Positions 7,490-61,290 of a stretch of 64,000 bases of DNA are shown here, one piece after another. The notes under the pieces were generated by a model. It was given only the letters and a program-made list of their open reading frames with translations, did not search any database and had not been told where the DNA came from. How positions within the stretch are numbered: position 1 is the stretch's first letter; each line of letters opens with the position of its first letter. Both the position numbers and the translations under genes were made by a program. Source of the stretch: a bacterium. GTDB taxonomy: Bacteria > Actinomycetota > Acidimicrobiia > Spongiisociales > Spongiisociaceae. The DNA lies in NCBI GenBank assembly GCA_028820935.1, contig JAPPHZ010000031.1:62001-126000 (forward strand), read 5' to 3'.

Positions 7490-7909
7490 CTATTCCTTCC
7501 CGGCCGATCTCCAGAGACCGGCGCCCACGGTCCCGAGCACCAGCGGGTTGAGCACCGCAACCAGATACCAGGCGACGTTGTCGGCTTGGCTGAGGGACTC
7601 GCCATCGGCCAGGTTCAGCAACCTGAACCACAGGGCGAAGAACAATATGGCGAGGGCGAGCGCGCAGTAGAACCCGGCCTGAGCCGCGAGGTACCGGCCT
7701 GCGGCGGCGTCGCGGGCGCCCGTCTTGCGAGTCCACACCACAGCCACCGAGACAAGGATGCCCGCGGCGGTGAGATAGTTCAGGATCCGGTACACGTCGC
7801 CCGGAGGGAGCACGTCGGAATAGAACGTGTGGAAGACGACCTGAACGGTGTAGATGATCGCGTACCCGAACAGCGCTCCGCCTACGGGCTTCCTGAGTGC
7901 GTCGGGCAT
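7490..7909 (-). CDS. Small integral membrane protein of unknown function
   Basis: 139 residues from ATG at 7909 (MPDALRKPV). An upstream in-frame ATG at 8029 exists, but AAGGAGGGACGG lies directly before 7909, so the shorter form is chosen. Four hydrophobic segments are seen at about residues 10-30, 40-62, 78-100 and 112-133, with basic loops consistent with a four-helix membrane protein. I do not recognise the family. It starts 26 bp downstream of the glutamine-synthetase-like gene's stop on the same strand and may be the last gene of that operon, converging on the large subunit at 5112-7457. Confidence 0.72.
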   Translation of the reverse strand: MPDALRKPVGGALFGYAIIYTVQVVFHTFYSDVLPPGDVYRILNYLTAAGILVSVAVVWTRKTGARDAAAGRYLAAQAGFYCALALAILFFALWFRLLNLADGESLSQADNVAWYLVAVLNPLVLGTVGAGLWRSAGKE

Positions 7910-7934
7910 CCGTCCCTCCTTGGAGTCGCGGCGG

Positions 7935-9227
7935 TTATACAGCCCTGGTGTAGCGTTCCCGCTCCCAGTCGCTGACGCTCTCCTGCCAGGCGCGTAGCTC
8001 CCACGCCCGCGAGATGGCGAAGTAGTCACTGAACTCCGCGCCTATGGCCTCCTGCAAGGCCGTATCTGCCCGGAAGGCCCTCAGGGCACTTTCCAGCGAG
8101 TTGGGCAGGGGCGGCAGGTCCGCCCGCTCGGAGACATCCCGGGTTTCGGGGGCCGGGGGGGACGCACCGTCCCTGATCCCGATCATCGCCGAAGCCAGCA
8201 GGGCCGCCAGTGCCAGGTAGGGGTTGGCGTCAGCGCCGGGACGGCGGCACTCGAGCCGGGAACGGGCCAGGCGGTTGCCCCGGATGGCCCGCACCGAAGT
8301 GGAGCGGTTCTCGTAACCCCAGCTCACGTTCACCGGCGCGAAGTAGCCGGGAACCAGCCGCTTGTAGGAGTTCACCGTGGGGTTCACCAGGAGGGAGGCG
8401 GCCGGAAGATGGTCGAGGATGCCCCCAATGGCCGACATGCACGTCGCGGGAAACTCACCTTCCGCAGTGGGGGCGAAGGCGTTGTGCTCGCCTTGCCAGA
8501 ACGAGAGGTGGATGTGGCCGCTCGAACCCTCCTCGAGCGGCATGGTCTTGGCCAGGAAGCTGGCGGTGAGGCCCAGGGAGGCCGCCACCTCTTTGACGGC
8601 GAACTTGAGCAGGGCGGCGTCGTCGGCGGCCCGGAGCCCCCGCCGGGCGGATATGTTCAACTCGAGCAGGCCCGGACCGGCCTCGGTGTGGACCGCTTCG
8701 AGGTTCACGCCAAGACCCTCGAGGGCCGGGACCAGCACCTCGAGCAGCCGGTCGAAACGGCCGATCTCCCCGAGGCTGTAGCTGATGCCTGAAGAAAGCG
8801 GATCACCGGCGCTGTCGAAGATTCTCACCTCGTACTCGAAACCCGCCATCACCTCGTAGCCCATGTCCGCCAGGTCCGCCAACACATCCCGCAGCACCTC
8901 ACGTGAGGCCAACCGGCATCTCGACCCGTCCGGCCAGCTCGGATCGGCCAGGCATATCCCCCAGCCCGGCCTCCATGCCAGCGGCCGGAGGGTGTCGGGA
9001 TCCGGCTGCAGCAGGAGATCGGGCGCGCCGGTGTTGATCCCGTACTCCCGGTAGTCGGCGATCGGCATGTCGACCGGGTCCAGACCCAGCCACAGGTCGG
9101 TCATCACCGTGCCCTTGTCCACCGCCGACCGGAAGGCGCCGGGCCGGAAGGCCTTGCCCCGGACGGAGCCGTGGACATCCGGCATACCCAGGAGGACGAA
9201 GCCGTCGTCGGAAGGATTCCAGGTCAT
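7935..9227 (-). CDS. Glutamine-synthetase-family ligase (gamma-glutamylamide / glutamylpolyamine synthetase-like)
   Basis: 430 residues from ATG at 9227, with GGAGGAACGAC before it and an ATGA overlap with the upstream aminotransferase stop. Glutamine-synthetase metal and ATP motifs are present: GFEYEV, GPGLLELN, GSSGHIHLS, NSYKRLVPG, ENRSTSVR and ECRRPGADANPYLA. The family joins glutamate to ammonia or to a primary amine using ATP. The short PuuA-like form and its neighbours (two aminotransferases, an amidotransferase domain and an aldehyde dehydrogenase) point to amine or polyamine gamma-glutamylation rather than ammonia assimilation; this is inference. A second, different family member lies at 61291-62655. 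Confidence 0.88.
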   Translation of the reverse strand: MTWNPSDDGFVLLGMPDVHGSVRGKAFRPGAFRSAVDKGTVMTDLWLGLDPVDMPIADYREYGINTGAPDLLLQPDPDTLRPLAWRPGWGICLADPSWPDGSRCRLASREVLRDVLADLADMGYEVMAGFEYEVRIFDSAGDPLSSGISYSLGEIGRFDRLLEVLVPALEGLGVNLEAVHTEAGPGLLELNISARRGLRAADDAALLKFAVKEVAASLGLTASFLAKTMPLEEGSSGHIHLSFWQGEHNAFAPTAEGEFPATCMSAIGGILDHLPAASLLVNPTVNSYKRLVPGYFAPVNVSWGYENRSTSVRAIRGNRLARSRLECRRPGADANPYLALAALLASAMIGIRDGASPPAPETRDVSERADLPPLPNSLESALRAFRADTALQEAIGAEFSDYFAISRAWELRAWQESVSDWERERYTRAV

Positions 9228-10606
9228 GTCGTTCCTCCGTTCGCCAAGCGGTCCGTGACCGTCCGGTCCACCTCCCCCACCACCCGGGCGAACCGTTCGA
9301 TCATCTCGGCCAGTTCCTCGTCCGTACTCGGGAGGGCCGGGGCGAAGACCGTCTGATCCCCGGCATAGCCATCGGCGTTGGGGTGGGTGGACATCACGAG
9401 CAGGTCGTTCTCCAAGGCACAGGCGTCGATCAGCTCCGCGATCCCCAGCGAGTCGGGCGGTATGGAGACGCCATCCCGCGGATCCACGTACTCGACACCC
9501 AGGAGGAACCCGCGGCCCCGGACCTCCCCCACGATCGCATAACCCTCGAGCGCCGCCCGAAGCCGGTCGAGAAGGGCCGGCCCTCGCTCCGCGGCCAGCC
9601 CGGCCAAGTTGTGCCGCTCCAGGTAGTCGAGCACTGCGAGTCCGACCGCGCAGCTCAGGGGCGCTCCGTCCCAGGTATGGCCCAGGTCGAACTCCTTCGA
9701 GCCACTCGCCAACACTTCGTATACGGGTTGGCGGCACATGGTGGCCGCCAGCGGCATATAGCCCCCGCCCAGCATCTTGCCGATGGTCACGATGTCGGGA
9801 GTGATCGGTAGATTCTGGTAGGCGAACCAGCCTCCCGTACGCCCCATACCGGTGACCACCTCGTCGAAGCAGACCAGGAAGCCGTACCGGTCCCGCCGCT
9901 CCGCCAGCCCCTCCCAGAAACGGTCCGGGGGCGAGTAGCCCGGTAGGGACGCCCCGCTGACCGGCTCGCAGAAGAAGGCGGAGACGTTCTCGGGGCCTGC
10001 TTGCTCGATCGCCTCGTCGAGGGCGTCTAGCGCGGCACCTCCCGTCGGGTCGAACCTCGGGGTAGACGGAGGGATATGGAGATGCTCGGACAGGTAGGGA
10101 TCCAACGGCGCCCGGAAGGTGGGGCGGCCGGTGAGCGACACCGTAGCCATTGTGCCGCCGTGGTAGGCCTGGGCCGGGGAGATGGCCCGCCACCGCGTGC
10201 CCTCCCCGCGATCCACGTGATACTGGCGGGCCAGCCGGAGAGCGGTCTCGTTGGCCTCGGAGCCGCCGCTCAGGAAACGGACCTTGGCCATCTCGGGGGC
10301 GATCTCCACCAGGCGAGCCGCCAGCCGCTCCTGGGGCCCGTTGGTGAAGTGGTGGGCGTAGTAGTAGGCAATATCGCCCATGGCGGTCTGGGCGGCGTCT
10401 GCTACTTCCCCCACCCCGTGACCGAGACCGGCCGTCATCGCGCCGCCCGAGCAGGCGTCGAGGATGCTCCTGCCGCCGATGGTGTACAGCCACACGCCCT
10501 CGCCCCGGTCGATACTCGGATACACCCGGTCGAGGTACTTGTGGAAGACGCTGGTGGAGGCGGCGTCGATGGTCAACTGGTCAATGCCCCCGGCCGATCC
10601 GGTCAT
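9224..10606 (-). CDS. Class III PLP-dependent aminotransferase
   Basis: 460 residues, ATG at 10606 overlapping the stop of the upstream fused gene, with CCGGAGGGG as ribosome site. PLP-fold motifs are GGSEANETA, AYHGGTMA, the Asp of FDEVVTGMGRTG and the Schiff-base Lys in TIGKMLGGGYMPL. The family moves amino groups from omega-amines or amino acids (GABA, putrescine, beta-alanine type) to a keto acid. It lies between a paralogous aminotransferase-amidotransferase fusion and a glutamine-synthetase-like ligase in an overlapping operon. It is about as long as typical omega-aminotransferases. The amino donor cannot be read from the sequence. Confidence 0.9.
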   Translation of the reverse strand: MTGSAGGIDQLTIDAASTSVFHKYLDRVYPSIDRGEGVWLYTIGGRSILDACSGGAMTAGLGHGVGEVADAAQTAMGDIAYYYAHHFTNGPQERLAARLVEIAPEMAKVRFLSGGSEANETALRLARQYHVDRGEGTRWRAISPAQAYHGGTMATVSLTGRPTFRAPLDPYLSEHLHIPPSTPRFDPTGGAALDALDEAIEQAGPENVSAFFCEPVSGASLPGYSPPDRFWEGLAERRDRYGFLVCFDEVVTGMGRTGGWFAYQNLPITPDIVTIGKMLGGGYMPLAATMCRQPVYEVLASGSKEFDLGHTWDGAPLSCAVGLAVLDYLERHNLAGLAAERGPALLDRLRAALEGYAIVGEVRGRGFLLGVEYVDPRDGVSIPPDSLGIAELIDACALENDLLVMSTHPNADGYAGDQTVFAPALPSTDEELAEMIERFARVVGEVDRTVTDRLANGGTT

Positions 10607-12690
10607 GATCGGTCCCCTCCGGGTCCTGGCAGGGCCAGGCCGGCTATGTCCTCGGCGTAGCGCTCCAGCAACTGCGCCGCGACGGCTCTCGCTCTGGGCT
10701 CAATCCGCCGGGTCTCCTCCAGCAGGGCGTCGGGATCGACCCCCTCGTCGTCGAGCTCATGGCGGTAGGCCTCGACCCAGCCGTCCATGATCTCGTTGGT
10801 GACCTCCGGATGGAACTGCACCCCGAGGCTGCGTCCCACCACGAACGCCTGCGGGCCGGCTTCACTGTCAGCGATGAGCTCGCCTCCGGGCGGAACCGAG
10901 AAGGTGTCGAAGTGCCATTGGAACCAGGGTCCGGGAGGCACCAGGTCCTCGTTGGCGCTTCGTACCGGCAACCAGCCGACCTCGGACAACTCCCCCCGGT
11001 AGGAGTCGCCCCCTAGGACTCGCGCCAGCAACTGGCCGCCGAAACACAGGCCCAGGATCGGGACGTCGGCACCTTGAGCCTCCACCAGCAGGTCCTTCTC
11101 CCGGTCGATCCAGGGAATCGAGTCGTCGAAAGCCGCCAACTCTGAGCCGAGAGAGACGATGAGGTCGTAGCGGGTGGGATCGACGCAGCGGTCCTCGAGG
11201 TCGATGCGGTAGATCTCCACGACGGCGCCCTGGTCCTCCAACCACTCATGGACGAACCCGGCCGGTGTCGGATCCTCGTGCTGGACGATCAGGACGCGAA
11301 GTCCCGCGGACGGAACGCCTCCAGCGGACAGACTCGGGCCGAGCTCGTCCCTCACCTCTGCGGCGACCTCCCCGACCGCGGCGGCCATCCGATCCACCAT
11401 CTCCCCGAGATCGCCGTCCGGGGTCGGGAAGGGCGGCGCGAACAGATGCTGGTCGCCTGCGAACCCGTCCCGGGTGGGCATGGTGCCCAGGACCAGGAGA
11501 CCGTGACGGGCCGCGGCCCGCTCGATCCGCCCCGCCACGCCCAGTTCGGGGGGAAGGAAGGACCGGCCGTCCCGAGGATCCACGTAGTCGATCCCGAGCA
11601 GGTAGCCCCGCCCCCTGACCTCCCCCACGAGATCGTTGCCCGAGAGGGCTTCCTCCAGTTCCCGGCGGAGAGACGGACCCCGCGTCGCCACGTGGTCGAC
11701 CCAGCCTTCGGACTCGAGGATTCCGAGCACCGCCAGACCCACCGCGCACGGCAGCGGCGAGCCGTCCCAGGTATGACCCAGCGAGAAGGATCGCACCGCG
11801 GAGGCGATCGCCTCGTACACGGGATTGCGATAGAGGACGGCCCCGATGGCGGTGTAACCGGCCCCCAAACCCTTGGCGGTAGCGATCACATCGGGGACGA
11901 TGGGGAGGTCGTTGGCCGCGAACCAGTTACCGGTCCGGCCGATCCCCGTCACGACCTCGTCGAAGCAGATCAGGAAGCCGTGGCGCTCCCTGCGCTCCGC
12001 CAGCCCCTCCCAGAACCGGGCCGGGGGCGAGTAGGCGGGCAGCGAGGCGGCGCTCACCGGCTCGCAGAAGAAGGCGGAAACGTTCTCGGGACCGACCTGC
12101 TCGAGCGCCTCGTCCAGCGCATCGAGAGCCTGCTGCCCGGTCGCGTCGAAACGGGCTGTTGAGGGCGGAATGTGGCGGTGACGGGTGAGGTAGGGGCCGA
12201 AGGCGCCCTGCAATCCGGGCCTCCCGGTGAGGGCGAGGGTCTGCATGGTGGGACCGTGATAGGCCTGGGCGGGCGAGATGATCTGCCAGCGCTGCGGCTC
12301 ACCGCGGGCGACGTGGTACATGCGGGCGGCCCGTATGGCGGCCTCGTTGGCCTCGGAGCCTCCTGTTACGAACCGCGCCCTAGTGAACCCCGGCGGCGCC
12401 ACGTCCACCAGCTTCGCGGCCAGCAACTCCTGCCATGGATTGGTCAGGTGGTTGTTGTCCAGGTATCCGACCCGGCGGGATTGCTCCCAGACCAGATCGA
12501 TGAGGTCGCGGCGGCCGTGGCCCAGGGTGGCCGCCATGGAACCACCACTCATGGCGTCCAGGTAGCGCTTGCCGGTGGAGTCCTCCACGCGGGCGCCGTC
12601 CCCGGCCACGATGATCCGATACGGCCTGGCCAGCTCGAGTTGGAGCACGGCCCCGGCCCCCGGCGCTACGAACGGTGCTCTCGACTGCAA
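10603..12690 (-). CDS. Fusion of class III aminotransferase with C-terminal class I glutamine amidotransferase
   Basis: A fused two-domain protein of about 695 residues. The aminotransferase part (about 1-450) shows GGSEANEAA, AYHGPTMQ, FDEVVTGIGRTG and the PLP Lys in ATAKGLGAGYTAIG. The GATase1 part (about 460-650) shows the nucleophile Cys in LGLCFGGQLLA and the His-Glu pair in VQFHPEVT, so it probably releases ammonia from a glutamine-like amide or hydrolyses a gamma-glutamyl bond. I chose a TTG start at 12690: GGAGG lies 4 bp upstream and the length before the fold matches paralogs. An ATG at 12813 and a GTG at 12648 are alternatives. The stop overlaps the next gene by ATGA. The fusion is unusual. 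Confidence 0.87.
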   Translation of the reverse strand: MQSRAPFVAPGAGAVLQLELARPYRIIVAGDGARVEDSTGKRYLDAMSGGSMAATLGHGRRDLIDLVWEQSRRVGYLDNNHLTNPWQELLAAKLVDVAPPGFTRARFVTGGSEANEAAIRAARMYHVARGEPQRWQIISPAQAYHGPTMQTLALTGRPGLQGAFGPYLTRHRHIPPSTARFDATGQQALDALDEALEQVGPENVSAFFCEPVSAASLPAYSPPARFWEGLAERRERHGFLICFDEVVTGIGRTGNWFAANDLPIVPDVIATAKGLGAGYTAIGAVLYRNPVYEAIASAVRSFSLGHTWDGSPLPCAVGLAVLGILESEGWVDHVATRGPSLRRELEEALSGNDLVGEVRGRGYLLGIDYVDPRDGRSFLPPELGVAGRIERAAARHGLLVLGTMPTRDGFAGDQHLFAPPFPTPDGDLGEMVDRMAAAVGEVAAEVRDELGPSLSAGGVPSAGLRVLIVQHEDPTPAGFVHEWLEDQGAVVEIYRIDLEDRCVDPTRYDLIVSLGSELAAFDDSIPWIDREKDLLVEAQGADVPILGLCFGGQLLARVLGGDSYRGELSEVGWLPVRSANEDLVPPGPWFQWHFDTFSVPPGGELIADSEAGPQAFVVGRSLGVQFHPEVTNEIMDGWVEAYRHELDDEGVDPDALLEETRRIEPRARAVAAQLLERYAEDIAGLALPGPGGDRS

Positions 12691-12882
12691 TCGACCTCCA
12701 ATCGGTCCTCGCCGGCGTGCGGGCGGTCCCCTGTACTCTTGGAACGGAAGTGGCGCGCCCGCCGGAACGCTGCCTGTGGCCCGCCGGCAGGATACCAACC
12801 GCCGACGGCCCACCGGGTGTCATCCCGGCCCGGTGTCGCGGTTACCACCGCAAGCAACCAGCCTATGAGATTGGAGTGAGGG

Positions 12883-14256
12883 ATGGATCCGGTCGCAGAT
12901 TCCATCGAGATCATCGACCCGTCGACCGAACAGGTCATCACCCGGCTTCCCGCTGCGGGGGTGGAACACGCAGACCGGGCCGTCGCCAGGGCTAAGGCAG
13001 CCTTCGCAACATGGCGTAACGTCACGGCCGGCGACCGGGCCACCATCTTGCGACGCGTCGGCGCAGCCGTAGAGGAGCAGGCGGTGTCGCTGGCGCAACT
13101 GGAGTCGCGCAACGTGGGAAAGCCGATCAGCGATGCCTTGGGAGAGGTGGGAATGGTGGCGGCCACCTTCGCCTACTACGCCGGATCGCCCGAACGCCTG
13201 ACCGGAAAGACGATCCCCGTGCCCGGCGGCGTGAACATGACCTTCAAGGAACCGATGGGCGTGGTCGGCCTGATCACGCCATGGAACTTCCCTCTCGCCA
13301 TCGCCTCCTGGGGGGTGGCGCCCGCCCTGGCAGCCGGCAACACGGTGGTTCTCAAGCCGGCGCAACTGACACCGCTGACGGCCATCGAACTCGAACGCAT
13401 CGCGCTGGAGGCAGGCATGCCGGAAGGCGTGTTCCAGGTGCTGGCCGGGCCGGGAAGGCTGGTGGGCGAGCGTCTCGTCGAGCACCCGGACGTGGCCAAG
13501 ATCGGCTTTACGGGCTCGACCGAAGTCGGCAAACGGATCAGCGCCCGCGCCTCGGAGACGATCAAGCGGGTGACGCTCGAACTCGGTGGGAAGTCGGCCA
13601 ATATCGTGTTCGCCGACGCCGATCTCGAGCAGGCGGCCGCCGCCGCTCCCGGCGCGGTATTCGGCAATGCCGGCCAGGACTGTTGCGCGCGATCCCGGAT
13701 CCTGGTGGAACGCAGCGCCATGGACGACTTCCTCGGCCTGTTCTCCGCCAACGTTGCCGCCATGCAGGTGGGCGATCCCATGGACGAGGCCACCGAGATG
13801 GGACCCCTGATCACGGCGGAACACCGATCCAAGGTGGCCTCGTTCCTGGACGATGACACCACCGTGGTGGCCCGCGGGACCGCCCCCGACGGTCCCGGAT
13901 TCTGGTTCGCGCCCACCGTCGTGACTCCGAACTCGCCCGGCGCCCGCGCGGTCACCGAGGAGATCTTCGGCCCCATCGCCTGCGTCCTGCCGTTCGACGG
14001 CGAGGAAGAGGCCATCTCCATCGCTAACGACACCGTCTACGGCCTGTCCGGATCGATCTGGACGGAGAACGGCGCCAGAGCGCTCCGGGTCGCCCGGGCG
14101 CTGGAGGCCGGCACCGTGTCGGTCAACTCCAACTGGTCGGTGCGGGTCGCCACACCCTACGGCGGCTTCAAGCAATCGGGCATCGGCCGGGCTCTCGGCC
14201 CCGACGCTCTCGACTACTACACCGAGCTCAAGAACGTCTACATGGCAACGGGCTGA
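12883..14256 (+). CDS. NAD(P)-dependent aldehyde dehydrogenase
   Basis: 457 residues, GGAGTGAGGG before ATG at 12883. The Rossmann and catalytic motifs are TPWNFPLA, KPAQLTPLTA, GFTGSTEVG, the general-base Glu in LELGGKSANIV (about 234) and the catalytic Cys in GNAGQDCCARSR (about 267-268). The C-terminal PYGGFKQSG motif is present. It is divergent from the aminotransferase/amidotransferase/ligase operon across about 190 bp. The natural role would be to oxidise the aminoaldehyde or gamma-glutamyl-aldehyde made there (PuuC-like); this is inference from context. The double Cys at the active site is normal for this family. Confidence 0.92.
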   Translation: MDPVADSIEIIDPSTEQVITRLPAAGVEHADRAVARAKAAFATWRNVTAGDRATILRRVGAAVEEQAVSLAQLESRNVGKPISDALGEVGMVAATFAYYAGSPERLTGKTIPVPGGVNMTFKEPMGVVGLITPWNFPLAIASWGVAPALAAGNTVVLKPAQLTPLTAIELERIALEAGMPEGVFQVLAGPGRLVGERLVEHPDVAKIGFTGSTEVGKRISARASETIKRVTLELGGKSANIVFADADLEQAAAAAPGAVFGNAGQDCCARSRILVERSAMDDFLGLFSANVAAMQVGDPMDEATEMGPLITAEHRSKVASFLDDDTTVVARGTAPDGPGFWFAPTVVTPNSPGARAVTEEIFGPIACVLPFDGEEEAISIANDTVYGLSGSIWTENGARALRVARALEAGTVSVNSNWSVRVATPYGGFKQSGIGRALGPDALDYYTELKNVYMATG

Positions 14257-14334: not shown

Positions 14335-15626
14335 ATGAGGTTCGAGTTCGAATCCGGCAAGGACTCTTCTACGTTACGCGCCATATTCGAGTTCGACGAA
14401 CAATACGCCGGAGAGCGTCAAGAAGGATGGGGCCAGCCGATCACCTATTCGGGGCAAGAGATCACCTTCGACTACGGCGTGCGATCCATTCACCCGGACC
14501 TGTTGGGTCTTCTCTGCTTGATGATCTTCTATCCGTTCTCTATCCGTTCATAGGGCAACGAGTGATCTTCCCTAGCCCGGTGTCGCCAAGACTCGAGAAG
14601 GCGTTCAGAAGAGTCCCGTTCAAGCGTCAGTTCCGGTTCGACAATGTCGATCGTGGACTAGGAAAGTATGAAGGTTCGCGAATGGTTCTCTCGTTCGGAG
14701 GGGGGATAGATTCCAGCGCCGTCCGCAAGATGTTTCCCGAAGCATTTGTCGTACACGAAGCTCATATAAGGGACGGCCAAGTCGTTCCCTCCCATGCCCA
14801 TGACGTGGTCCGGCACCTCGGTCCTGACCGGGGCCGGGTGGTGACTACGAACCAACGGTACGTCTCACATCCGGGCGGATGGCACGGGTGGACTTGCGCG
14901 TTTGCCACGTCCCTGCTGATGGCAACGGACTACCGGTTCGGGATCATCCTGATGGGGTCGAACCTCGGGGGCACCCTCCTTCGCAACGGGATTCGTTACT
15001 ACAACCGGTTCAAAGCCAGAAAGTGGCACGGACCAACCGGGAACTTCTGGCAATCGGCATTCGACGACATCGGAATACCCGTCTTCTCACCCGTATCCGG
15101 TGCGAGCGAGTACCTCACGATGGCACTATCCCTCGACCTTGTCCGTTCGGGAAGAGTGGTCTACTGCATGGAGCGGGACGGCGGGGCTTGCCACCGGTGC
15201 ACCAAGTGCATGCGAAGGGATGTGATTCGTACTCTGGTCGATGAAGGACACCGCGCCGACTGGGAACCGTACGACCGCAAGGACATACATGAGTTCCTTG
15301 AGCGCGAGCCCCTGTACGAGGCCTACATCTTCTCCTTTGCCCGCGATCGTGTGAAGACCCTGCCACCCTTCATGACATCCAGACTCGGGGGCATTCCATC
15401 GATCGAACTGGACTGGCCCATGAGGATCCATCCAGGCACGTTCCGCTTCTGTGACAAGGCTTGGAGACCGATGATCCGCAAGAGAGTTCTCGGACACGCG
15501 GAACCGATGACACGAAGGCATGTGTCGGAGATGAAGAAGTGGGACGTGATGCGGCCTCAGCCGTCGCGCCGTCCCTGGATGGGCCTCGGACTTCCTGGCT
15601 CCAACCGTTCCCGGCCAGGAAGCTGA
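14335..15626 (+). pseudogene. QueC-like PP-loop ATPase gene broken by an 11-bp tandem duplication
   Basis: Two overlapping frames (14335-14553 and the frame ending at 15626) join into one roughly 425-residue protein if one copy of an 11-bp repeat at 14528-14549 is removed; the join then reads LLCLMIFYPFIGQRVIFP. The PP-loop ATP-binding motif LSFGGGIDSSAV lies just after the join. A C-terminal zinc-type cluster YCMERDGGACHRCTKCMRR resembles the Cys motif of 7-cyano-7-deazaguanine synthase (QueC), but the rest does not look like standard QueC. The product would adenylate a substrate; which one is unknown. As sequenced the gene is frameshifted; slip-strand variation or an assembly error are alternatives. 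It converges on hyuB. Confidence 0.75.
14528..14549 (+). repeat. Exact 11-bp tandem duplication causing a frameshift
   Basis: The unit TCTATCCGTTC occurs twice head to tail (14528-14538 and 14539-14549). Because 11 is not a multiple of 3 the second copy throws the PP-loop gene out of frame and brings a TAG stop at 14551-14553. Confidence 0.95.
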
Positions 15627-15700: not shown

Positions 15701-17440
15701 TTACCCGGCGTGGCGGAGTTTTCGGGTCGCTTCCAGGTCGAGGCGGTAGTCGGCGGGTAGACGTACCAGTTGGCCGTCCTCGCCCAGGTACTCGACCACC
15801 ACGCCGTAGTCACGCCTCGCCGCCTCCACGGAGACGTAACCCTCGATAACGTCCCATAGGACAGCCTCGGGGTCCCGGGTGAACGGATCTCCGTAACCGC
15901 CGCCGCCCGGCAGGTTGAGCTGGACCCGGCTGGCGGGGTCGAGCACCAGCAGGCGTTTCGGTTGGGCCTCCTTGGCGCCGTCGATCCGGAACTCGCCGGC
16001 CGCTCCGTACCCTCCTCCCAGCAGCCCCTCGGGCGGGTAGGAGATGCGATCGACCATGCCCGACACGGTCCATGGCTCGTCGGTGACACAGCTCATCTCG
16101 GTCCACTGGCCCAGCCCGCCTCTGAACTTGCCGGCTCCGCCGGAGTCGGTGCGTAGTTCCCGCCGGTGCTGGACCATGGACGTGAGGGTCTCCACGGACT
16201 CGGCCAGCACCCCCGCCACCCCGCTGGGGAAGCCTGTCGTGTTGAGGCCGTCCTTGGACGCCCGCGCCCCGGCACCGCCGCACTGGAAAAGGCTGAAGGT
16301 GAACCGGTCGTCCGACCGCCGGGGCCTCCCCCGCCAGATCGAGATCCAGATCGGGTCGGAGCCGGGCGCCATGAGCCGGTCGGGCAGGGCCTCCGCCAGC
16401 GCCCCGAACACGACACCGGGCAGGAAATGGCCGATGATGTGCCGGGAGGCCACCGCAGCCGGTTCCAGGCAGTTGAGGATCGACCCGGGAGGGGCCGAGA
16501 CGTGCACCGGACGGAAGGCGCCGTCGTTGTGGGGGACATCGGGGCTGATGGCCGCCTTCATCGCGAACGACGCGTAGGCGTGGGTGTAGTTGAAGACCAC
16601 GTTGATTCCCCGGACGCTCTCCGGCGACGAGCCGGCGAAATCGATGAGGATGTCCTCGTCCTCGATGGTCACCTTCGCCTTGATCAGGATCGGCTCCTCG
16701 AAGCCGTCGCTCCAGGTCTCGTGCTCGTGGACGCCGTTGGGAATCTCCCGAATGGCGCTACGCATGGCCTCTTCCGAGCGGGTGATGATCTCGTGGGAGA
16801 GGGGATCGATCGAGTCGAGATCGAACTCGTCCATGAAGCTGAGCAGCGCCCTGGCGCCGACGTCATTGCAGGAGGTCTGGGCATACAGATCGCCCACCGT
16901 CTCGTCAGGGGTGCGGACGTTGGCACGGACGATGGAGATCAGATCCTGGTTGATGGCGCCCCGGTCGTACAGCTTCATGATGGGGATGCGCAGACCCTCC
17001 TCGTACACCTCCCGGGCCTCGGCCGAGAGTATCCGCCCGCCGATGTCGGCCGCGTGGCAGGTGTTGGCGAAGTAGGCAACCTCGATGCCGTTCTTGAAGA
17101 CCGGCGTCAACACCGTTATGTCATTGATCTGGCCGGCGGTCATCCAGGGATCGTTGGTGAGCAACACGTCGCCGGGGCTCAGGCTGCCCGGGGGGTACTC
17201 CTTCAGGAAGTGGCGCACGCCGGTGGCCATGGCGTTGATGTGCCCGGGGGTCCCGGTGACCGACTGGGCCATCATCCAACCGTTGGTGTCGAAGACCCCG
17301 CAGGCCAGGTCCTGGGTCTCTCGCACGATGGTGCTGAACGCCGTTCGCTGCAAGGCCACCTGCTGCTCGTTGACGACCGAAAGCACCCGGCTCCAGAGCA
17401 CCTCGATGAGGACCGGATCCAGACCCGTCCGAGTGGTCAT
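15701..17440 (-). CDS. hyuB: Hydantoinase B / 5-oxoprolinase beta-type subunit
   Basis: 579 residues, ATG at 17440 overlapping the hyuA stop (ATGA). The protein has the standard HyuB start (DPVLIEVLWSRVLSVVNEQQ) and conserved blocks such as GHINAMATG, LTNDPWMTAGQINDITV, ANTCHAADIGG and, near the C-terminus, GGGGYGDPF. With HyuA it performs ATP-dependent opening of cyclic amides such as hydantoins or 5-oxoproline in the cytoplasm. The two genes form a compact operon, divergent from an ABC importer that could supply the substrate. The stop is followed by a convergent broken PP-loop gene about 75 bp away. Substrate specificity cannot be read from the sequence. Confidence 0.93.
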   Translation of the reverse strand: MTTRTGLDPVLIEVLWSRVLSVVNEQQVALQRTAFSTIVRETQDLACGVFDTNGWMMAQSVTGTPGHINAMATGVRHFLKEYPPGSLSPGDVLLTNDPWMTAGQINDITVLTPVFKNGIEVAYFANTCHAADIGGRILSAEAREVYEEGLRIPIMKLYDRGAINQDLISIVRANVRTPDETVGDLYAQTSCNDVGARALLSFMDEFDLDSIDPLSHEIITRSEEAMRSAIREIPNGVHEHETWSDGFEEPILIKAKVTIEDEDILIDFAGSSPESVRGINVVFNYTHAYASFAMKAAISPDVPHNDGAFRPVHVSAPPGSILNCLEPAAVASRHIIGHFLPGVVFGALAEALPDRLMAPGSDPIWISIWRGRPRRSDDRFTFSLFQCGGAGARASKDGLNTTGFPSGVAGVLAESVETLTSMVQHRRELRTDSGGAGKFRGGLGQWTEMSCVTDEPWTVSGMVDRISYPPEGLLGGGYGAAGEFRIDGAKEAQPKRLLVLDPASRVQLNLPGGGGYGDPFTRDPEAVLWDVIEGYVSVEAARRDYGVVVEYLGEDGQLVRLPADYRLDLEATRKLRHAG

Positions 17441-19539
17441 GCTGCCCCTCCCAGCGAGACGACGATGTTGAACCTGTCGTCCACGCGCACCAGGCCACCC
17501 GGCCCGATGATGGCGGTGGACTCCCGCTCCTCGATGATCGCCGGCCCGGCCATGGTCGAGCCGGGACCCAGCCGGTAGCGGTCGTAGACCGGCGTGGTCA
17601 CGAATCCCCCCACCGACGGGAAGAAGGCAGGCCGCTCACCCTTGCGGGCCGACTCCGCATCGCCGGTCACGTCGCCCCTGGCCGTCTCGACAGGCATGGG
17701 CCGTGGTCCCCGGCTCACCACCCGCCAGGTGAGGGCCTCGAGCCCGACCGGAGGCCCCTCCCGGCCGTAAAGGCTCTGGTAGACCCGGTCGAACTCCTCG
17801 TACATCGTTCGGCGCTGGCGGACCGTCAGCGTCCCGTCGGGGACCGGAACCCGTATCTCGTGGCCCTGGCCCACATAGCGAATGTCAGCGGTCCTCGTGT
17901 GAGTGATCTCGTCGGGTCCGGCGCCCGACTCGACCAGAAGGTCGGTTCCTTCCCGCTCCATTTCCTCGAAGATGCCGTTCACCGCACCCCAATCCAGCTC
18001 GTCGAGCCTCCCGTAGTAGGACCGCACGAAGTCGAACGCCAGCGGAGCCACCAGGAGCCCCATCGCGCTGGTGACGCCGGCGCCGTACGGCAGCACCAAC
18101 TCGGTGCTGCCCAACAACTCGGCTACGCCGTAGCCATGGACGGGTCCGGCGCCTCCGAAGGCGACCACCGGCAGGGCTCTAGGGTTCTTCCCCCGCTCCA
18201 CGACGTGGACCCGGGCGGCGTTGGCCATGGCCTCGTTGACGACCTGGTGAACCCCCCAGGCGGCCTCGGGCACCGACATCCCCAGCCGATCGCCGATTCT
18301 TCGGGCGATGGAGGCCTCCGCAGCGGCCACGTCCAGCCTCATGGCGCCCCCCAGGAAGTAATCGGGGTCCAGGTAGCCGAGAACGAGATCGGCGTCCGTG
18401 ACCGTGGGGGAGTTCCCGCCCAGGGCGTAACAGACCGGTCCGGGATCGGCGCCGGCCGAGTCGGGACCCACTTTGAGCAGCCCCAGGGAGTCGACCCTGG
18501 CAATGGACCCCCCGCCCGCGCCGATCTCGATCATCTCTATGACCGGAACCTTCACCGGGAGACCGGAGCCCTTCTTGAAGCGATAGCGGCGGTCCACCTC
18601 GAAATCGTGGGTGACGAGCGGCTCGCCCCCGTCCACCACGCTGAGCTTGGCGGTGGTACCCCCCATGTCGAAGGACAGCAGCGAGTCGCGGCCCATGGCC
18701 GTCCCTACCGCCGCCGCCGCCAGTGCTCCGGCGGCCGGACCCGACTCCAGGAGACGGATCGGGAACCGGACGCAGGTGTCGAGGGTTGCCACACCGCCGC
18801 TGGAGAGCATCACGAACAACTGCCCCTCGAAACCCATTCTCTCCAGGCGGCTGCGGAGACCATGCAGATAGTCCTCGACCAGAGGCTGGACGTATACGTT
18901 GGCGATGGTCGTGGACGCTCGCTCGAACTCGCCTATCTCGGGAACGACCTCCGAGGAAAGGGAGACCCGCATTCCCGGGGCCTCTCCACTGACCACATCG
19001 CGAGTTCGTTCCTCCGAATCGGGATTGGTGAAGGAGTGGAGGAAGCAGATCGCCACCGCCTCCACGCCGGCGCCGGCCAACTCACGGACCAGGCGCGTCA
19101 CGTAGTCCTTGCCGAGTTCGACGGCCTGCGTCCCGTCGGTCAGGGTTCGCTCCGGGACGTCGAAGCGGAGATGGCGCGGTACGAGCGGGCGGGGATGCTC
19201 CAGGTTCAGGTCGTACAGCTCGTAGCGATGCTCGCGGCCGATCTCTATGGAATCCCTGAACCCCGAAGTAGTGAGCAGAGCCGTCCGTGCCCCCTTGCGT
19301 TCGATGATGGCATTGGTGACCAGGGTGGTTCCGTGGACCAGATGGCGGACCGACGCCCCGGTATAGCCCGAACGATCGAGCGTCCGTTCCAGCACCTCCT
19401 CGACCCCTAGTGACGGATCGGGAGTGGTGAGCACCTTGCCGATCTCGACCTGGCCGGATTGGCCGACCATCATGAGGTCGGTGAAGGTGCCGCCGATGTC
19501 GACACCTATCCGCAACTCGTTACCTGCTGATCCGACCAT
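17437..19539 (-). CDS. hyuA: Hydantoinase A / 5-oxoprolinase alpha-type ATPase subunit
   Basis: 700 residues from ATG at 19539. The N-terminal ASKHA-type nucleotide-binding motif GVDIGGTFTDLMMV is intact, followed by LVHGTTLVTNAIIERKGA, DMGGTTAKLSVVDGG, the GAGGGSIA loop and the family motif AFGGAGPVHGYGVAE. It couples ATP hydrolysis to ring opening of a five-membered cyclic amide together with HyuB. The ribosome site is weak (AAGGCG). The upstream region to 19756 is AT-rich relative to its surroundings and shared with the divergent binding-protein gene, suggesting co-regulation. Confidence 0.93.
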   Translation of the reverse strand: MVGSAGNELRIGVDIGGTFTDLMMVGQSGQVEIGKVLTTPDPSLGVEEVLERTLDRSGYTGASVRHLVHGTTLVTNAIIERKGARTALLTTSGFRDSIEIGREHRYELYDLNLEHPRPLVPRHLRFDVPERTLTDGTQAVELGKDYVTRLVRELAGAGVEAVAICFLHSFTNPDSEERTRDVVSGEAPGMRVSLSSEVVPEIGEFERASTTIANVYVQPLVEDYLHGLRSRLERMGFEGQLFVMLSSGGVATLDTCVRFPIRLLESGPAAGALAAAAVGTAMGRDSLLSFDMGGTTAKLSVVDGGEPLVTHDFEVDRRYRFKKGSGLPVKVPVIEMIEIGAGGGSIARVDSLGLLKVGPDSAGADPGPVCYALGGNSPTVTDADLVLGYLDPDYFLGGAMRLDVAAAEASIARRIGDRLGMSVPEAAWGVHQVVNEAMANAARVHVVERGKNPRALPVVAFGGAGPVHGYGVAELLGSTELVLPYGAGVTSAMGLLVAPLAFDFVRSYYGRLDELDWGAVNGIFEEMEREGTDLLVESGAGPDEITHTRTADIRYVGQGHEIRVPVPDGTLTVRQRRTMYEEFDRVYQSLYGREGPPVGLEALTWRVVSRGPRPMPVETARGDVTGDAESARKGERPAFFPSVGGFVTTPVYDRYRLGPGSTMAGPAIIEERESTAIIGPGGLVRVDDRFNIVVSLGGAA

Positions 19540-54914: not shown

Positions 54915-55703
54915 CTAGGGCAACACGTATTCCCGGTAGCGGCTTATCTCCTCGAATCCCAGGGAATCGAGCACCGGCACCAGGGCCGGTGGGCTCAGGA
55001 CCGCGGCCAGGTCGGCGCCGTCCTCGAACCCGGACCGGACTGTGGCGTCGACCACCGAGGTGGCCAGCCCCCGGCCGCGGTATTCCGGCTTCGTGCAAAC
55101 CCATCCGATCAGAGCGGTGCCGTCCACGAGTGTTGCCAGGGCGCAGGCTGCCGCGCTGCCGTCCTCGTACGCGACCACTGCCGACCTGTGGGGGCCGGTC
55201 AGGGCCTGCACCCGCCTGAGGATCCGATCGACCAGCGGCCTGGTTTCGGTTTCGGGGCCGAGCGACGAGGCCACCACGCCACAGAAGTCGAGCATCCCGG
55301 TGGGGTTCTCGACCGGTCGCAGTTCCACCTCTTCGGGAAGCGCCGTGCGGGGAGGCGGCGCCGATGTGACCATCGCCGACAACTCTGCCGCCATCGCCTT
55401 CCCGTTCCGCTCGACCTCGGCCCACAGCCCGCGGTCGTCCGATCGCGCCAGGAGCGTGTAACCGTGCTTGCGAGCGGCGAAGAAGCGAGCCGTGATGCCC
55501 AATGCCTCGCGAGGGGACATCACCCGGGAAACCCGCATCACGCCATTGGCATAGGCGGGTGAGGCCTGCGGGAGCGGACTCGCCCACGACACCACGCCGT
55601 TCGCCTCCCAGATCTCCCCGCCGCAGCTGCGGACGGTCTCCCGGTAGGCCTCGGCCAGCGCCGAATCGAACCGGTCCAGCATGTTGCGGTCCGTCACGTC
55701 CAT
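54915..55703 (-). CDS. GNAT-family acetyltransferase
   Basis: 262 residues from ATG at 55703. The C-terminal half has the acetyl-CoA-binding GNAT fold: WVCTKPEYRGRGLATSVVD (the R/Q-x-x-G-x-G/A loop, here RGRGLA) near residue 215, ending with LDSLGFEEISRYREYVLP. The N-terminal half resembles the divergent N-terminal region of GNAT pairs but lacks a clear motif. It may acetylate small amines or peptides. It is on the same strand as the MFS gene, about 115 bp downstream of it. Confidence 0.82.
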   Translation of the reverse strand: MDVTDRNMLDRFDSALAEAYRETVRSCGGEIWEANGVVSWASPLPQASPAYANGVMRVSRVMSPREALGITARFFAARKHGYTLLARSDDRGLWAEVERNGKAMAAELSAMVTSAPPPRTALPEEVELRPVENPTGMLDFCGVVASSLGPETETRPLVDRILRRVQALTGPHRSAVVAYEDGSAAACALATLVDGTALIGWVCTKPEYRGRGLATSVVDATVRSGFEDGADLAAVLSPPALVPVLDSLGFEEISRYREYVLP

Positions 55704-55818
55704 CGACTCTTTCGCGCCAGCTCGGCCATCCGCTCGATGGTATCGGGGTCCATGGTGTGCGGCCGGTTGGGGTCCGGGATGGCCGAAGCGCGCGAACCTG
55801 GCCGGAGAGTGGCCACTG

Positions 55819-56970
55819 TCAGAAGACGTTTTTCCAGCTGTCCCGCTTCGCCAGCACCGCCAACGGTGTGATCGCCAGCACCGCGGCCGCCCCGCAGAAC
55901 AGGACGGGAGGACCGGCCGCGGCGTATATGGGAGGCCCGACGAGCGCCCCGAAGGAAGCCAGCACCAGACCGCAGGACTCGATGAGGCCCTGGGCCTCGG
56001 CGGCCTGACCCCGGGGAGCCACCTTGGCCACGGCCGCCTGGCCGGGCGGCGTCACGAAGGACCAGGAACTCGAGTGCAGGGCACCCACCAGCAGCAATGT
56101 GGGTATTCCCGTCACGAACCCGAAGGCGACAATGAGCGGGAGCTCGACCGCGGCGCCTATGAGGGCCAACCGGATCGGGTTGATGCGGTCCGATAGCCGG
56201 CCGCTGACAGGGGTGACGAAGACGCTCGGCAGCGCCACCGCCAGGAACCCGAGCCCGATCGCCACCGGCCCGGCGCCCAGATCGGTCATGTAACGGGCCC
56301 ACAGGGCGTCGAGCATGCCGATCATCAGCCAGGGCGAGGCGGCCAGGAACAGGCCGGGGGCGAGGCCCGGGATCATGGCCAGCCGCCGACGATTCAGCCG
56401 CACGGTGGAGCGCCCGTACTCGCCGGGCCTGACCGTCACCAGGAGCGGGAGCAGCAGCACCTCCACCAACGCCGGGAAGAGGAAGGGAAGACCCCGGTGC
56501 AGCTCGTGGAGGAAACCGGCCAAGGGAGGACCGAGGAGAAACCCGATCGTCAGCGTCATGGTCAGCGAGGCGAGCGCCTTGCCCTGCCGGTCCGGATCCC
56601 AGCTCAGCATCAACCGGCGAGCCGCGACCACGCAGACCCCCTCGGCGAAACCGAGCAGCGCCCGGGCGGCCACCCAGTGCCAAAGCGCCGAGGCGACCAC
56701 CATCCACAACAGGGCCAGAGCTGCCAAGACTCCCCCGACGGTGATCATCCGCCGTTCCCAACCCCGGTCGGCGAACGACGCCAGCCACAGATGGGCAACC
56801 AGGGTGGACGCGAACGATGTGCCGGCGATCAGCCCCAGAGACCAGGTGGGAAACCCGAACCTGTCCTGTATCTCGGCCAGCAGGGAGATGATCACCCCGA
56901 TCCCCATAGCCTGGGCGCCGATGAAGACGAGCAGCACCAGCCTCGGTAGCCGGTGGGGATCGGGGCGCAT
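55819..56970 (-). CDS. Major facilitator superfamily transporter
   Basis: 383 residues from ATG at 56970, slightly shorter than usual but with about twelve hydrophobic helices. MFS loop motifs are seen: SFADRGWERRMITVGG (A-like motif between helices 2 and 3) and SGRLSDRINPIRLALIG in the second half. It exports or imports a small solute using a proton gradient; the substrate is unknown. It is transcribed leftward, divergent from the PhyH dioxygenase gene across about 145 bp, and may be linked to it. Confidence 0.9.
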   Translation of the reverse strand: MRPDPHRLPRLVLLVFIGAQAMGIGVIISLLAEIQDRFGFPTWSLGLIAGTSFASTLVAHLWLASFADRGWERRMITVGGVLAALALLWMVVASALWHWVAARALLGFAEGVCVVAARRLMLSWDPDRQGKALASLTMTLTIGFLLGPPLAGFLHELHRGLPFLFPALVEVLLLPLLVTVRPGEYGRSTVRLNRRRLAMIPGLAPGLFLAASPWLMIGMLDALWARYMTDLGAGPVAIGLGFLAVALPSVFVTPVSGRLSDRINPIRLALIGAAVELPLIVAFGFVTGIPTLLLVGALHSSSWSFVTPPGQAAVAKVAPRGQAAEAQGLIESCGLVLASFGALVGPPIYAAAGPPVLFCGAAAVLAITPLAVLAKRDSWKNVF

Positions 56971-57115
56971 TGGGCCAGGCTAGACCACCAGCCTCGATGC
57001 GGCCCTGCCGCAGGCGCACCCCGCACCCCGATCGCCAACCGTGAGCGGCGTGGACGTACCGTCGAGTGCCCGTTGATAGAGTTGCGAACGGCAGGCGAGG
57101 AGGAACTCGAGGAGC

Positions 57116-57916
57116 ATGAAAGCACTAACCGTGGAGCAGATCGGCGCTTGGGAGCGCAACGGGTTCCTGAAGGTCGAGAACTTCGTGGACGCCGACGAGC
57201 TCGCCAACATCCGGAGGATCATGGAGGGCCTCGTCGAACAGGACCCGCCCCACGAGAACACGCTCGTCGATATCGACCCCGTGCTAGCCGATCGGATTGA
57301 CATTCCCAGGACGGAGAAGTTCCGCGCCCTGATGCATGCCGCCCACGCCAGCCGCGAGCTCCTCGAGACCTACACATTGCGACCCAGGACGCTCGACGTG
57401 GTGGAGGACCTGATCGGCCCGGACATCGTCTACTACACCGACCAGACCTTTCTCAAGCCTCCCGGCGGGAGCGGCGCCCCTGCCCACCAGGACAACGGCT
57501 ACTGGGATGTCTTCTGGTCCGGAAAGGGCAAGCTCTCGGTGTGGTTGGCGCTCGACGACTCCACATTGGAACGAGGATGCACCCAGTTCGTTCCCGGCAG
57601 CCACCGCGAAGTCCTGCAACACGACCGGGACTTCAGCAAGGATGCCCTGTTCGGTGGGGCGGTCCCGGACCTGGACCCCGACCAACTCGAGTTCGAGCCG
57701 GTGGAACTGAAGGCCGGCGACGCGTGCATCCACCACTGCGAGATCATCCACAGGAGCGGACCGAACGTGTCCGACCACTCGCGACGCGGGCTCGTGACGA
57801 TCTACTTCAGCGGGCGTTGCACCTACACCGACCAGGCGTCCGAGTGGTTTCCGCACCGCATGATCCCGGCGCGCGGCCACGTGTATCCCGGATGCGTAGG
57901 CTGGTACGAAAACTAG
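57116..57916 (+). CDS. Phytanoyl-CoA dioxygenase (PhyH) family Fe(II)/2-oxoglutarate oxygenase
   Basis: 266 residues; GGCGAGGAGG and AGGAGC precede ATG at 57116. The iron triad is seen as HQDN (HxD, about residue 123-125) and the distal His in CEIIHRSGPN (about 212), with the 2-oxoglutarate-binding Arg in SRRGLVTIYF. Family members hydroxylate diverse small metabolites (acyl-CoA, ectoine, halogenated or aminated compounds). The stop codon is the first unit of a heptamer repeat. Divergent from an MFS gene, convergent with the aspartate-dehydrogenase-like gene. Confidence 0.92.
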   Translation: MKALTVEQIGAWERNGFLKVENFVDADELANIRRIMEGLVEQDPPHENTLVDIDPVLADRIDIPRTEKFRALMHAAHASRELLETYTLRPRTLDVVEDLIGPDIVYYTDQTFLKPPGGSGAPAHQDNGYWDVFWSGKGKLSVWLALDDSTLERGCTQFVPGSHREVLQHDRDFSKDALFGGAVPDLDPDQLEFEPVELKAGDACIHHCEIIHRSGPNVSDHSRRGLVTIYFSGRCTYTDQASEWFPHRMIPARGHVYPGCVGWYEN

Positions 57917-57968
57917 TTGCTAGTTGCTAGTTGCTAGTTGCTAGTTGCTAGTTGCTAGTTGCTAGTTG
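57913..57968 (+). repeat. Eight perfect tandem copies of a 7-bp unit at the stop codon of the PhyH gene
   Basis: CTAGTTG is repeated eight times without error (57913-57968). The TAG stop of the dioxygenase lies inside the first copy. A heptamer contains TAG in one frame per unit and slippage would change all three frames downstream but not the stop itself. Confidence 0.97.
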
Positions 57969-58011
57969 ATTACGGTAATACTTGACAACTAACTGGCCAC
58001 CGGCCATTGAA

Positions 58012-58812
58012 TCAGCAGATCTGTAGGCCTGTCCCCGGACTCTTGGCGCTTACCACGCTGCCCAGGGCGGATATCAGGGTGAATATCCCGCTCACCCCTT
58101 TCATCGGACTGACCCGCCTGATCGTCAGATCGGCGGCCTCGCCGCGGGCGATGATCTCGATGTCGGAGGTGTGGGAGTCCGTCACCGCTATCAGTACCGA
58201 CCGGGTGCGGTCGAACCCGATCCCTCCCAGGGCCAGCGCGGCGTGGGCGTTGACGTTGCGAGGGAACAGCGGGCAGATACCTCTGGTGGGACCGTCGTAG
58301 ATCACCGTGTCCTCCGTGATTTCCGCACCGGTCAGGGTCGGATGCTCGCTGAAGTCGATGCTGGACGGACTCTTGCGCATCACCATCGTGACCTCGTCCC
58401 ACTGGTCCCGCCCCTCCGCGAGGGCCTCCAACCCCACCACCGCACCGTGGGGGATGTAGAGCCGGGTGCCGTGGGCTTCGGCAGTCTCCAGTAGCGTGCC
58501 CTCCAACGCCGCATCCGCAAGGGCGGTGAGGGACAGGGGCATGTAGTCGGTCTGGCGGAGGAACGCGGCGCCGTGGGCCCTCGTGACCGATGCGTGCGCC
58601 AACTCGACCACCAGATCGGGCTCGTGCCGGGCGAAGTCCCCGAGATCCTCCAGAACCAGTTCGGAGGGCAGGTGGGCCACCTTCTCCGGACTGCGGTTAT
58701 GGACGAACGCCACCTCGAGTCCCAGTTCGGGTCGGGTACTGATCTGCTCGTACACGTAGGAACCGATCAGGCCGTGGCCGACGATGCCGATGCGGGGCCG
58801 CGCGAGGCTCAT
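58012..58812 (-). CDS. Aspartate-dehydrogenase-like (NadX) oxidoreductase
   Basis: 266 residues from ATG at 58812. The N-terminal Rossmann motif GIVGHGLIGSYV and the C-terminal DUF108-type domain (PRNVNAHAALALGGIGFD) mark it as an L-aspartate dehydrogenase family member: reversible NAD(P)-dependent conversion between aspartate and iminosuccinate/oxaloacetate, or a related dicarboxylic amino acid. It is 21 bp downstream of a threonine-dehydratase-like gene and with the class III aminotransferase forms a three-gene leftward operon. Its role may be to reduce an imino product of the dehydratase (inference). Confidence 0.87.
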   Translation of the reverse strand: MSLARPRIGIVGHGLIGSYVYEQISTRPELGLEVAFVHNRSPEKVAHLPSELVLEDLGDFARHEPDLVVELAHASVTRAHGAAFLRQTDYMPLSLTALADAALEGTLLETAEAHGTRLYIPHGAVVGLEALAEGRDQWDEVTMVMRKSPSSIDFSEHPTLTGAEITEDTVIYDGPTRGICPLFPRNVNAHAALALGGIGFDRTRSVLIAVTDSHTSDIEIIARGEAADLTIRRVSPMKGVSGIFTLISALGSVVSAKSPGTGLQIC

Positions 58813-58833
58813 AACTGACGTCCCGGTACCCGT

Positions 58834-59808
58834 TCAGCCCCCGGCGGTCCCGGCCAGGATCATGTCGAGGACCGAGGGTTGGATGTTGCCGCCCGACGCG
58901 ATCGCAACGGTGACCCGGCTGTTGTCGACCTGCCCGTCGAGGAAGGCCGCCGCGGCGGTGGCCCCGCCGGGCTCAGCCAGGGTCTTGGTGCGGAACAGGA
59001 TCGTCCTCACGGACTCGGCGATGGCCTCCTCGCTCACCAGCAGGATGTCATCGAGGTACCTCTGGAGGTAACGGAAGGGCAGTTCCCCCGGCCGCCGGCC
59101 CGACAGGGCGTCCGCCATCGAGTGCCAGTTCTCGATGGTCCGCACCTCCCCCGCCTGCCAGGACAGGTAGGCGGCGTTGCCGCCCTCCGGCTGGACACCG
59201 AGGACCTCCACGTCCGGGCGGTTCTCCTTGATCGCCACCGCGATGCCCGCGGCCAGCCCCCCACTCGAGATGGGTATCAGGACGGTCTCGACATCGGGAA
59301 CCTGTTCGAGGATTTCCAGGCCGATCCCGGAGTGGCCGATCGGCACTTCCGGATGCTCGAACGAGTGCAACGCGAGCATCCCCTGCTCCTCAGCCACGCG
59401 CTCCACGGTGGGGTCGCGGTCGGCGAATGTGGGGCAGATGACCACTTGGGCTCCGTAGTCCCTGGTGGACTGCACCTTCACGTCAGCCGTGTAGCCGGGC
59501 ATGACGATGGCGACCGGTGACCCGACCACCGGTCCGGCGTAGGCGAAGGCCTGGGCGAAGTTCCCGGACGAGGACATGACGATCCCCCTCCGGCGGCCCT
59601 CGTCGTCGAACGAGCGGAGGATGTGGAAGGCGGCGCGGGCCTTGTACGACCCGGTGACCTGCAGGTGCTCGGCCTTGAGGAAGAGACGCTCCCGGCCCAC
59701 TTCGGCGGAGGATCGGGCCACCGGGAGGATGGGTGTGACCCGCACGGGCGGCGCCATCCGCTCGTAGGCGTCCACGACCTTGTCGAGGGTGACCTCACCA
59801 CCGGACAT
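58834..59808 (-). CDS. Threonine dehydratase-like / hydroxyaspartate-dehydratase-like PLP enzyme
   Basis: 324 residues; ATG at 59808 overlaps the upstream aminotransferase end by 14 bp. PLP-binding Lys in GSYKARAA near residue 50, SSSGNFAQA as the phosphate loop and SSGGLAAG near 180. The length lacks the C-terminal ACT domains of biosynthetic IlvA, so it is of the catabolic or serine-racemase/hydroxyaspartate-dehydratase or EutB type. Context with aspartate dehydrogenase and aminotransferase favours a role in hydroxy-amino-acid breakdown. Confidence 0.88.
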   Translation of the reverse strand: MSGGEVTLDKVVDAYERMAPPVRVTPILPVARSSAEVGRERLFLKAEHLQVTGSYKARAAFHILRSFDDEGRRRGIVMSSSGNFAQAFAYAGPVVGSPVAIVMPGYTADVKVQSTRDYGAQVVICPTFADRDPTVERVAEEQGMLALHSFEHPEVPIGHSGIGLEILEQVPDVETVLIPISSGGLAAGIAVAIKENRPDVEVLGVQPEGGNAAYLSWQAGEVRTIENWHSMADALSGRRPGELPFRYLQRYLDDILLVSEEAIAESVRTILFRTKTLAEPGGATAAAAFLDGQVDNSRVTVAIASGGNIQPSVLDMILAGTAGG

Positions 59809-61141: not shown

Positions 61142-61290
61142 CGGCGACTATACCCGCTCGCACTGTGCGCGGGCCATGGCCGCGGGTGCAGCCTGTGACC
61201 GGCCGATGCCCGACCACTTATAATCGGCGGCACACGACCAAAGGCCTCCGCCATACCTTGAGCGAGGGGCCGGCCGAGGAGGTTCGGAAG

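Follow-up and report, generated by a model that had tools for sequence, protein, structure and literature searches.

Why should one bacterial gene encode both an aminotransferase and a glutamine amidotransferase (GATase), and what might the two halves achieve together? The question is raised by a locus in a 64,000-nucleotide stretch of an Acidimicrobiia contig, hereafter the window. A reading made from the sequence alone had proposed that a single protein joins a complete class III aminotransferase (AT1) to a complete class I GATase (GAT). Pfam matches bear this out: Aminotran_3 (PF00202) covers residues 25–436 of the fused protein with 241.7 bits (cut-off 30.5; profile positions 11–400 of 403) and GATase (PF00117) covers residues 528–633 with 36.9 bits (cut-off 22.8), all three motifs (AKGLGAGY, LCFGGQ and FHPEVT) being present. 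The linker of about 14–15 residues is Gly/Ser/Pro-rich in most homologues and variable in sequence. The suspected TTG start also holds. GGAGG lies 4–5 nt 5′ of it, TTG-CAG or GTG-CAG occupies the equivalent position in nine homologues, and in several of these the frame closes a few codons further 5′, which excludes a GTG at 12813 as the conserved start. A promoter and terminator scan gave none, with no sigma-70-type promoter match in the divergent intergenic region. Coordinates are collected in Table 1.

Table 1. Features of the fused cassette, in window coordinates.
Feature	Coordinates	Strand	Remarks
GS-like γ-glutamyl ligase, 430 aa	7935..9227	(-)	Lacks FDGSS; start overlaps AT2 stop, ATGA
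AT2, class III aminotransferase, AT1 paralogue	9224..10606	(-)	57% identical to AT1; start overlaps fusion stop, ATGA
Fused AT1-GAT protein	10603..12690	(-)	695 aa, TTG start; AT ~1–448, linker ~449–463, GATase ~464–690
GATase domain	10606..11307	(-)	Invariant triad, domain model, structure match
AT1 aminotransferase domain	11304..12690	(-)	Residue alignment and structure match
Divergent intergenic region	12691..12882	(.)	RBS GGAGG of the fusion at left edge
Aldehyde dehydrogenase, divergent	12883..14256	(+)	Orthologues 59–73% identical, equivalent position in several unfused cassettes

AT1 combines the PF00202 profile with the PLP lysine and partner aspartate of a class III aminotransferase: Lys273, Asp244 and Tyr144-His145 are invariant in 41 orthologues, and Thr307 is present in 40 of the 41. 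The GATase domain pairs the PF00117 profile with the Cys-His-Glu triad of a class I GATase, Cys549, His627 and Glu629 (C87, H165 and E167 in domain numbering) being invariant in 46 sequences, and it also carries a GPWFQWHFD motif. The catalytic residues on which the sequence-only reading relied are thus kept, with no loss in alignments of 41–46 orthologues. Pairwise comparisons gave dN/dS of 0.06–0.19 in both domains, with the linker less constrained; both halves are therefore kept as protein under purifying selection.

The type of GATase was judged from structure. Modelled alone, the domain reached a pLDDT of 95 and was closest to MsGATase (7d54; Z 34.0, rmsd 1.6, 224 aligned), then to DnfC (8khs, Z 32.1), a Methylobacillus GATase (30.0), TM1158 (1o1y, 29.9) and the Arabidopsis γ-glutamyl peptidase GGP1 (23.9). 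GATase parts of synthases gave Z of 21 and less, and SpuA (7d4r), which is of the PuuD type, was a distant match at 17.9. The domain thus belongs with the stand-alone γ-glutamyl amide hydrolases (MsGATase, DnfC, TM1158, GGP1) and not with PuuD. That the hydrolase is not PuuD-like had been surmised at the outset, and Peptidase_C26 (PF07722) indeed falls below its cut-off (19.9 versus 20.5 bits). Alignment to these stand-alone type 1 enzymes extends over nearly the full domain length, and the PGPWFQWHFD and FHPEV motifs are common to MsGATase and the window's domain; unlike the latter, none of the four is fused to an aminotransferase. Among them, DnfC acts as a hydrolase on both glutamine and γ-glutamyl hydroxamate (PMC11440038). 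The locus connects this stand-alone class I GATase type, often without an assigned role, with a ligase–transaminase cassette, for which γ-glutamyl amide hydrolysis offers a concrete test.

The neighbours proposed for the fusion, a second class III aminotransferase and a GS-like ligase behind it and an aldehyde dehydrogenase facing it, are all in place. Since ATGA overlaps link the fusion to AT2 and AT2 to the ligase, the three very probably belong to a single operon. The FDGSS motif holds the ammonium-site Asp of true glutamine synthetase. None of the 30 cassette ligases has it in the aligned region, where an LGLDPVD-like sequence stands instead, and the window's ligase scores only 229.5 bits against the GlnA cut-off of 429 and 217.7 against the 650 of the PuuA equivalog (NF045547); by sequence it is best described as a GS-superfamily relative. 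None of the four genes has an NCBIfam equivalog match that reaches the cut-off. Directly after the ligase, a small hydrophobic ORF (7490–7909; ATG at 7909, GGAGG upstream) is possibly a membrane protein of the operon; the longer frame, 7490–8029, has no Pfam match. At the right end of the window (54915–62655) lies a separate group with a class III aminotransferase (59795–61141), a PALP/threonine-dehydratase-like gene (58834–59808), an aspartate-dehydrogenase-like gene (58012–58812), a PhyH dioxygenase, an MFS transporter and a GNAT protein, faced by a second GS-like ligase (61129–62655); we take this group to resemble ectoine-type catabolism.

Outside the host family the gene order AT1-GAT-AT2-GS-like ligase recurs with AT1 and GAT as separate genes. 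Among the unfused cassettes (L040–L072), the full set of four genes is present on about 28 contigs, the other loci being truncated by contig ends; their hosts belong to Actinomycetota, Chloroflexota/Dormibacterota and, in one case, the Gammaproteobacteria (Arenicellales). Several lineages have the divergent aldehyde dehydrogenase, further GS-like ligases are often present, and some cassettes adjoin a Peptidase_C26 (PuuD-type) hydrolase, an amino acid permease, or GntR/FCD or PucR-type regulators. One or two extra divergent GS-like ligases, about 30% identical, stand beside the cassette ligase in L044, L052, L043, L070 and others. In the Chloroflexi-labelled loci L047, L057 and L061–L069 the cassette adjoins an FGGY sugar kinase, a DeoC-type aldolase, an alcohol dehydrogenase and RpiR/GntR regulators, a context unlike that in Acidimicrobiia. 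A plasmid search returned GATases of <50% identity only, none of them within an aminotransferase cassette in the four regions read; on a Streptomyces plasmid, and in a Rhodococcus plasmid cluster that includes catechol 1,2-dioxygenase, a GS-like ligase and a related GATase lie close together.

The best reading of the locus is an amine-catabolism operon working by γ-glutamylation, with transaminases substituting for the PuuB oxidase and the hydrolase tethered to one of them. The E. coli Puu pathway employs the ligase PuuA, the oxidase PuuB, the aldehyde dehydrogenase PuuC, the hydrolase PuuD and the aminotransferase PuuE (PMC9397018). In the proposed route the GS-like ligase would cap the amine with glutamate, one class III transaminase would convert the free amino end to an aldehyde in place of PuuB, and the aldehyde dehydrogenase would oxidise the aldehyde to the acid. 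The GATase domain would next hydrolyse the γ-glutamyl amide through its Cys-His-Glu triad, yielding glutamate and an omega-amino acid that the other transaminase would deaminate. The fusion would most simply fix hydrolase and transaminase at a 1:1 ratio and in proximity. Should its two domains catalyse successive steps, AT1 would take the PuuE-like position directly after hydrolysis. We infer the reactions, the substrate and the assignment of each transaminase to its step. The gene neighbourhood upholds the γ-glutamyl-type context first suggested, and the GS-like and GATase neighbours, together with published clusters of a γ-glutamyl ligase and a GAT-like protein (see below), support a γ-glutamylation amine pathway; as no gene matches an equivalog, its substrate is left unfixed. 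We put at about 65% the probability that this is a lineage-specific fusion within a conserved catabolic cassette that degrades a primary amine or diamine via γ-glutamylation.

The surroundings of the fused cassette bear on the substrate. It is flanked by molybdenum hydroxylases, caprolactamase/hydantoinase-like genes and a peptide-type ABC transporter, with no dedicated polyamine transporter directly beside it, and these genes could point to another substrate, such as other amines or omega-amino acids. The sugar-kinase, aldolase and alcohol dehydrogenase neighbours of some unfused cassettes likewise count against the amine reading. The genes at 15701–19539 encode a two-subunit hydantoinase/oxoprolinase-type enzyme whose best named match is caprolactamase alpha/beta (521 and 243 bits, cut-offs 1000), and the pair stays adjacent to the fused cassette in relatives. 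Between it and the aldehyde dehydrogenase, a DUF6395 protein (14427–15626), encoded in a stretch of lower G+C (0.617), occurs in five relatives and is absent from that place in others of the family; it is perhaps an insertion. The cassette might be biosynthetic or serve a non-polyamine compound, for instance an omega-amino acid derived from a lactam, γ-glutamylation merely protecting an intermediate. The caprolactamase-like subunits favour this, being found also in an unfused Acidimicrobiia cassette (L055). The other unfused cassettes, however, have no HydA/HydB nearby; the extra GS-like ligases are common there, some have the PuuD-type hydrolase or amino acid permease, and we regard such a role as rather unlikely.

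The pair of aminotransferases admits another explanation. In structure the AT1 model comes nearest to omega- and putrescine transaminases such as 6hx9 (Z 43.7, rmsd 2.2, 375 aligned residues). In the tree AT1 and AT2 form separate groups (SH-aLRT 97 and 92), which argues that their duplication predates the spread of the cassette. Class III aminotransferases build their active sites at dimer interfaces, and two old, adjacent paralogues of this identity could be the subunits of a heterodimeric transaminase acting in one step, with the fusion merely tethering the hydrolase to the complex. Neither, however, stands out as a merely structural subunit, since the PLP lysine, the partner Asp and the YH and GHTW motifs persist in both, and the two transaminations of the pathway account for two enzymes as they stand. 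A heterodimer is therefore unlikely.

Whether the fusion passes anything between its sites is a further question, the sequence-only reading having suggested a γ-glutamyl intermediate or ammonia. With a pTM of 0.61 and a linker of low confidence, the model of all 695 residues defines neither a domain interface nor a channel. Channelling of the γ-glutamyl intermediate is no more than a possibility. The fuller proposal, an undescribed γ-glutamylation pathway that uses two paralogous transaminases instead of the oxidase and whose fused enzyme also hands the γ-glutamyl intermediate or the freed omega-amino acid straight from one of its hydrolase and transaminase sites to the other, we consider improbable as a whole. 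Ammonia fares worse. GATases are frequently fused to their synthases, and with its complete triad and PF00117 fold the domain might hydrolyse glutamine and deliver ammonia to the aminotransferase domain or a partner, as synthase-type GATases do. Yet class III aminotransferases are supplied by an amino donor via PMP and have no chemical need of free ammonia, the nearest structures are stand-alone enzymes (Z 34–23, against 21 and less for the synthase type), and GAT is a separate gene in cassettes outside one family. Ammonia channelling is thus very unlikely.

How widespread is the fusion? Its frame is single and uninterrupted in the window, and the gene is free of stops in 10 of the 15 genomes of the GTDB family, spanning three of its four genera; the other nine fused genomes carry versions 78–97% identical to the window's gene. 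Nine fused loci (L031–L039), probably mostly the same assemblies as these ten, were left out of the count. A domain search in other genomes, proposed at the outset as a check, found no further AT1-GAT fusion outside the family at E <= 1e-100 in the sampled genomes of the class (395), the phylum (396), a Chloroflexota group (301) and the gammaproteobacterial order (109). Several candidates were discarded: L136, flagged automatically as fused, is AT2 following a separate GAT; L111, L112 and L114–L120 are windows beside fusions already counted; and in G451 and G608 the matches span both domains but a TAG lies in between. Although most sequences found come from draft or metagenome assemblies, a missed stop, frameshift or other assembly or annotation artefact has practically no chance of explaining an identical, stop-free fusion in ten genomes of three genera in which synonymous changes predominate on both sides of the linker, and the fusion is genuine, as first supposed.

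The unfused cassettes suggest how it arose. The TGA that ends AT1 runs into the start codon of GAT in almost every one, as ATGA or GTGA, with GTGA in L113/L055, the nearest unfused locus within the same order; in one unfused genus AT1 and GAT abut in frame (...TAG ATG...). Fused GAT sequences form one branch (SH-aLRT 95) nested among unfused GATs, and fused AT1 sequences likewise form one branch (SH-aLRT 100). Together with the lack of other fusions in the sampled genomes, this points most plausibly to one event, confined to this lineage, that joined two genes whose translation was coupled beforehand. The fusion can be accounted for as coupled genes becoming one, an unremarkable merger of enzymes already working side by side. 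It provides a natural series within a conserved operon, from ATGA-overlapping through in-frame abutting genes to one fused gene, and the cassette hints at a γ-glutamyl amine pathway that does without an oxidase. The fusion's host family consists mostly of uncultured Acidimicrobiia, and the cassette spans several phyla of mostly uncultured bacteria.

No published report of a class III aminotransferase–GATase fusion was found in a literature search that covered few subscription journals. Related systems keep the genes separate. In Pseudomonas spuABC, GATase, GS-like and aminotransferase genes adjoin. This Spu/Pau γ-glutamylpolyamine route, with the hydrolase SpuA, GS-like ligases and the aminotransferase SpuC, recalls the cassette in that the Pseudomonas putrescine transaminase 6hx9 is among the nearest structures to AT1; its enzymes are, however, separate proteins, and SpuA (7d4r) resembles the fused GAT domain only distantly in structure. 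The clusters for aniline (AtdA1-AtdA2) and 1-naphthylamine (NpaA1-NpaA2) contain a γ-glutamyl ligase and a GAT-like protein (PMC11335346), and the Streptomyces ethanolamine cluster has GlnA4, the aldehyde dehydrogenase orf3 and the GATase orf5 (PMC6529630). All pair a GS-like γ-glutamyl ligase with a GAT-like protein as the cassette does, AtdA2 being likened by its published description, but they rely on dioxygenase or dehydrogenase chemistry in place of transaminases. For the E. coli Puu pathway the same kinds of reaction are expected, with ligase, aldehyde dehydrogenase, γ-glutamyl hydrolase and class III aminotransferase clustered as in the window. The genes at 7935–14256 nevertheless comprise only the GS-like ligase, AT2, AT1-GAT and the aldehyde dehydrogenase. 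Two paralogous aminotransferases thus stand where Puu has the FAD oxidase PuuB, and the hydrolase is a PF00117 GATase, not a Peptidase_C26 enzyme, fused to one of them.
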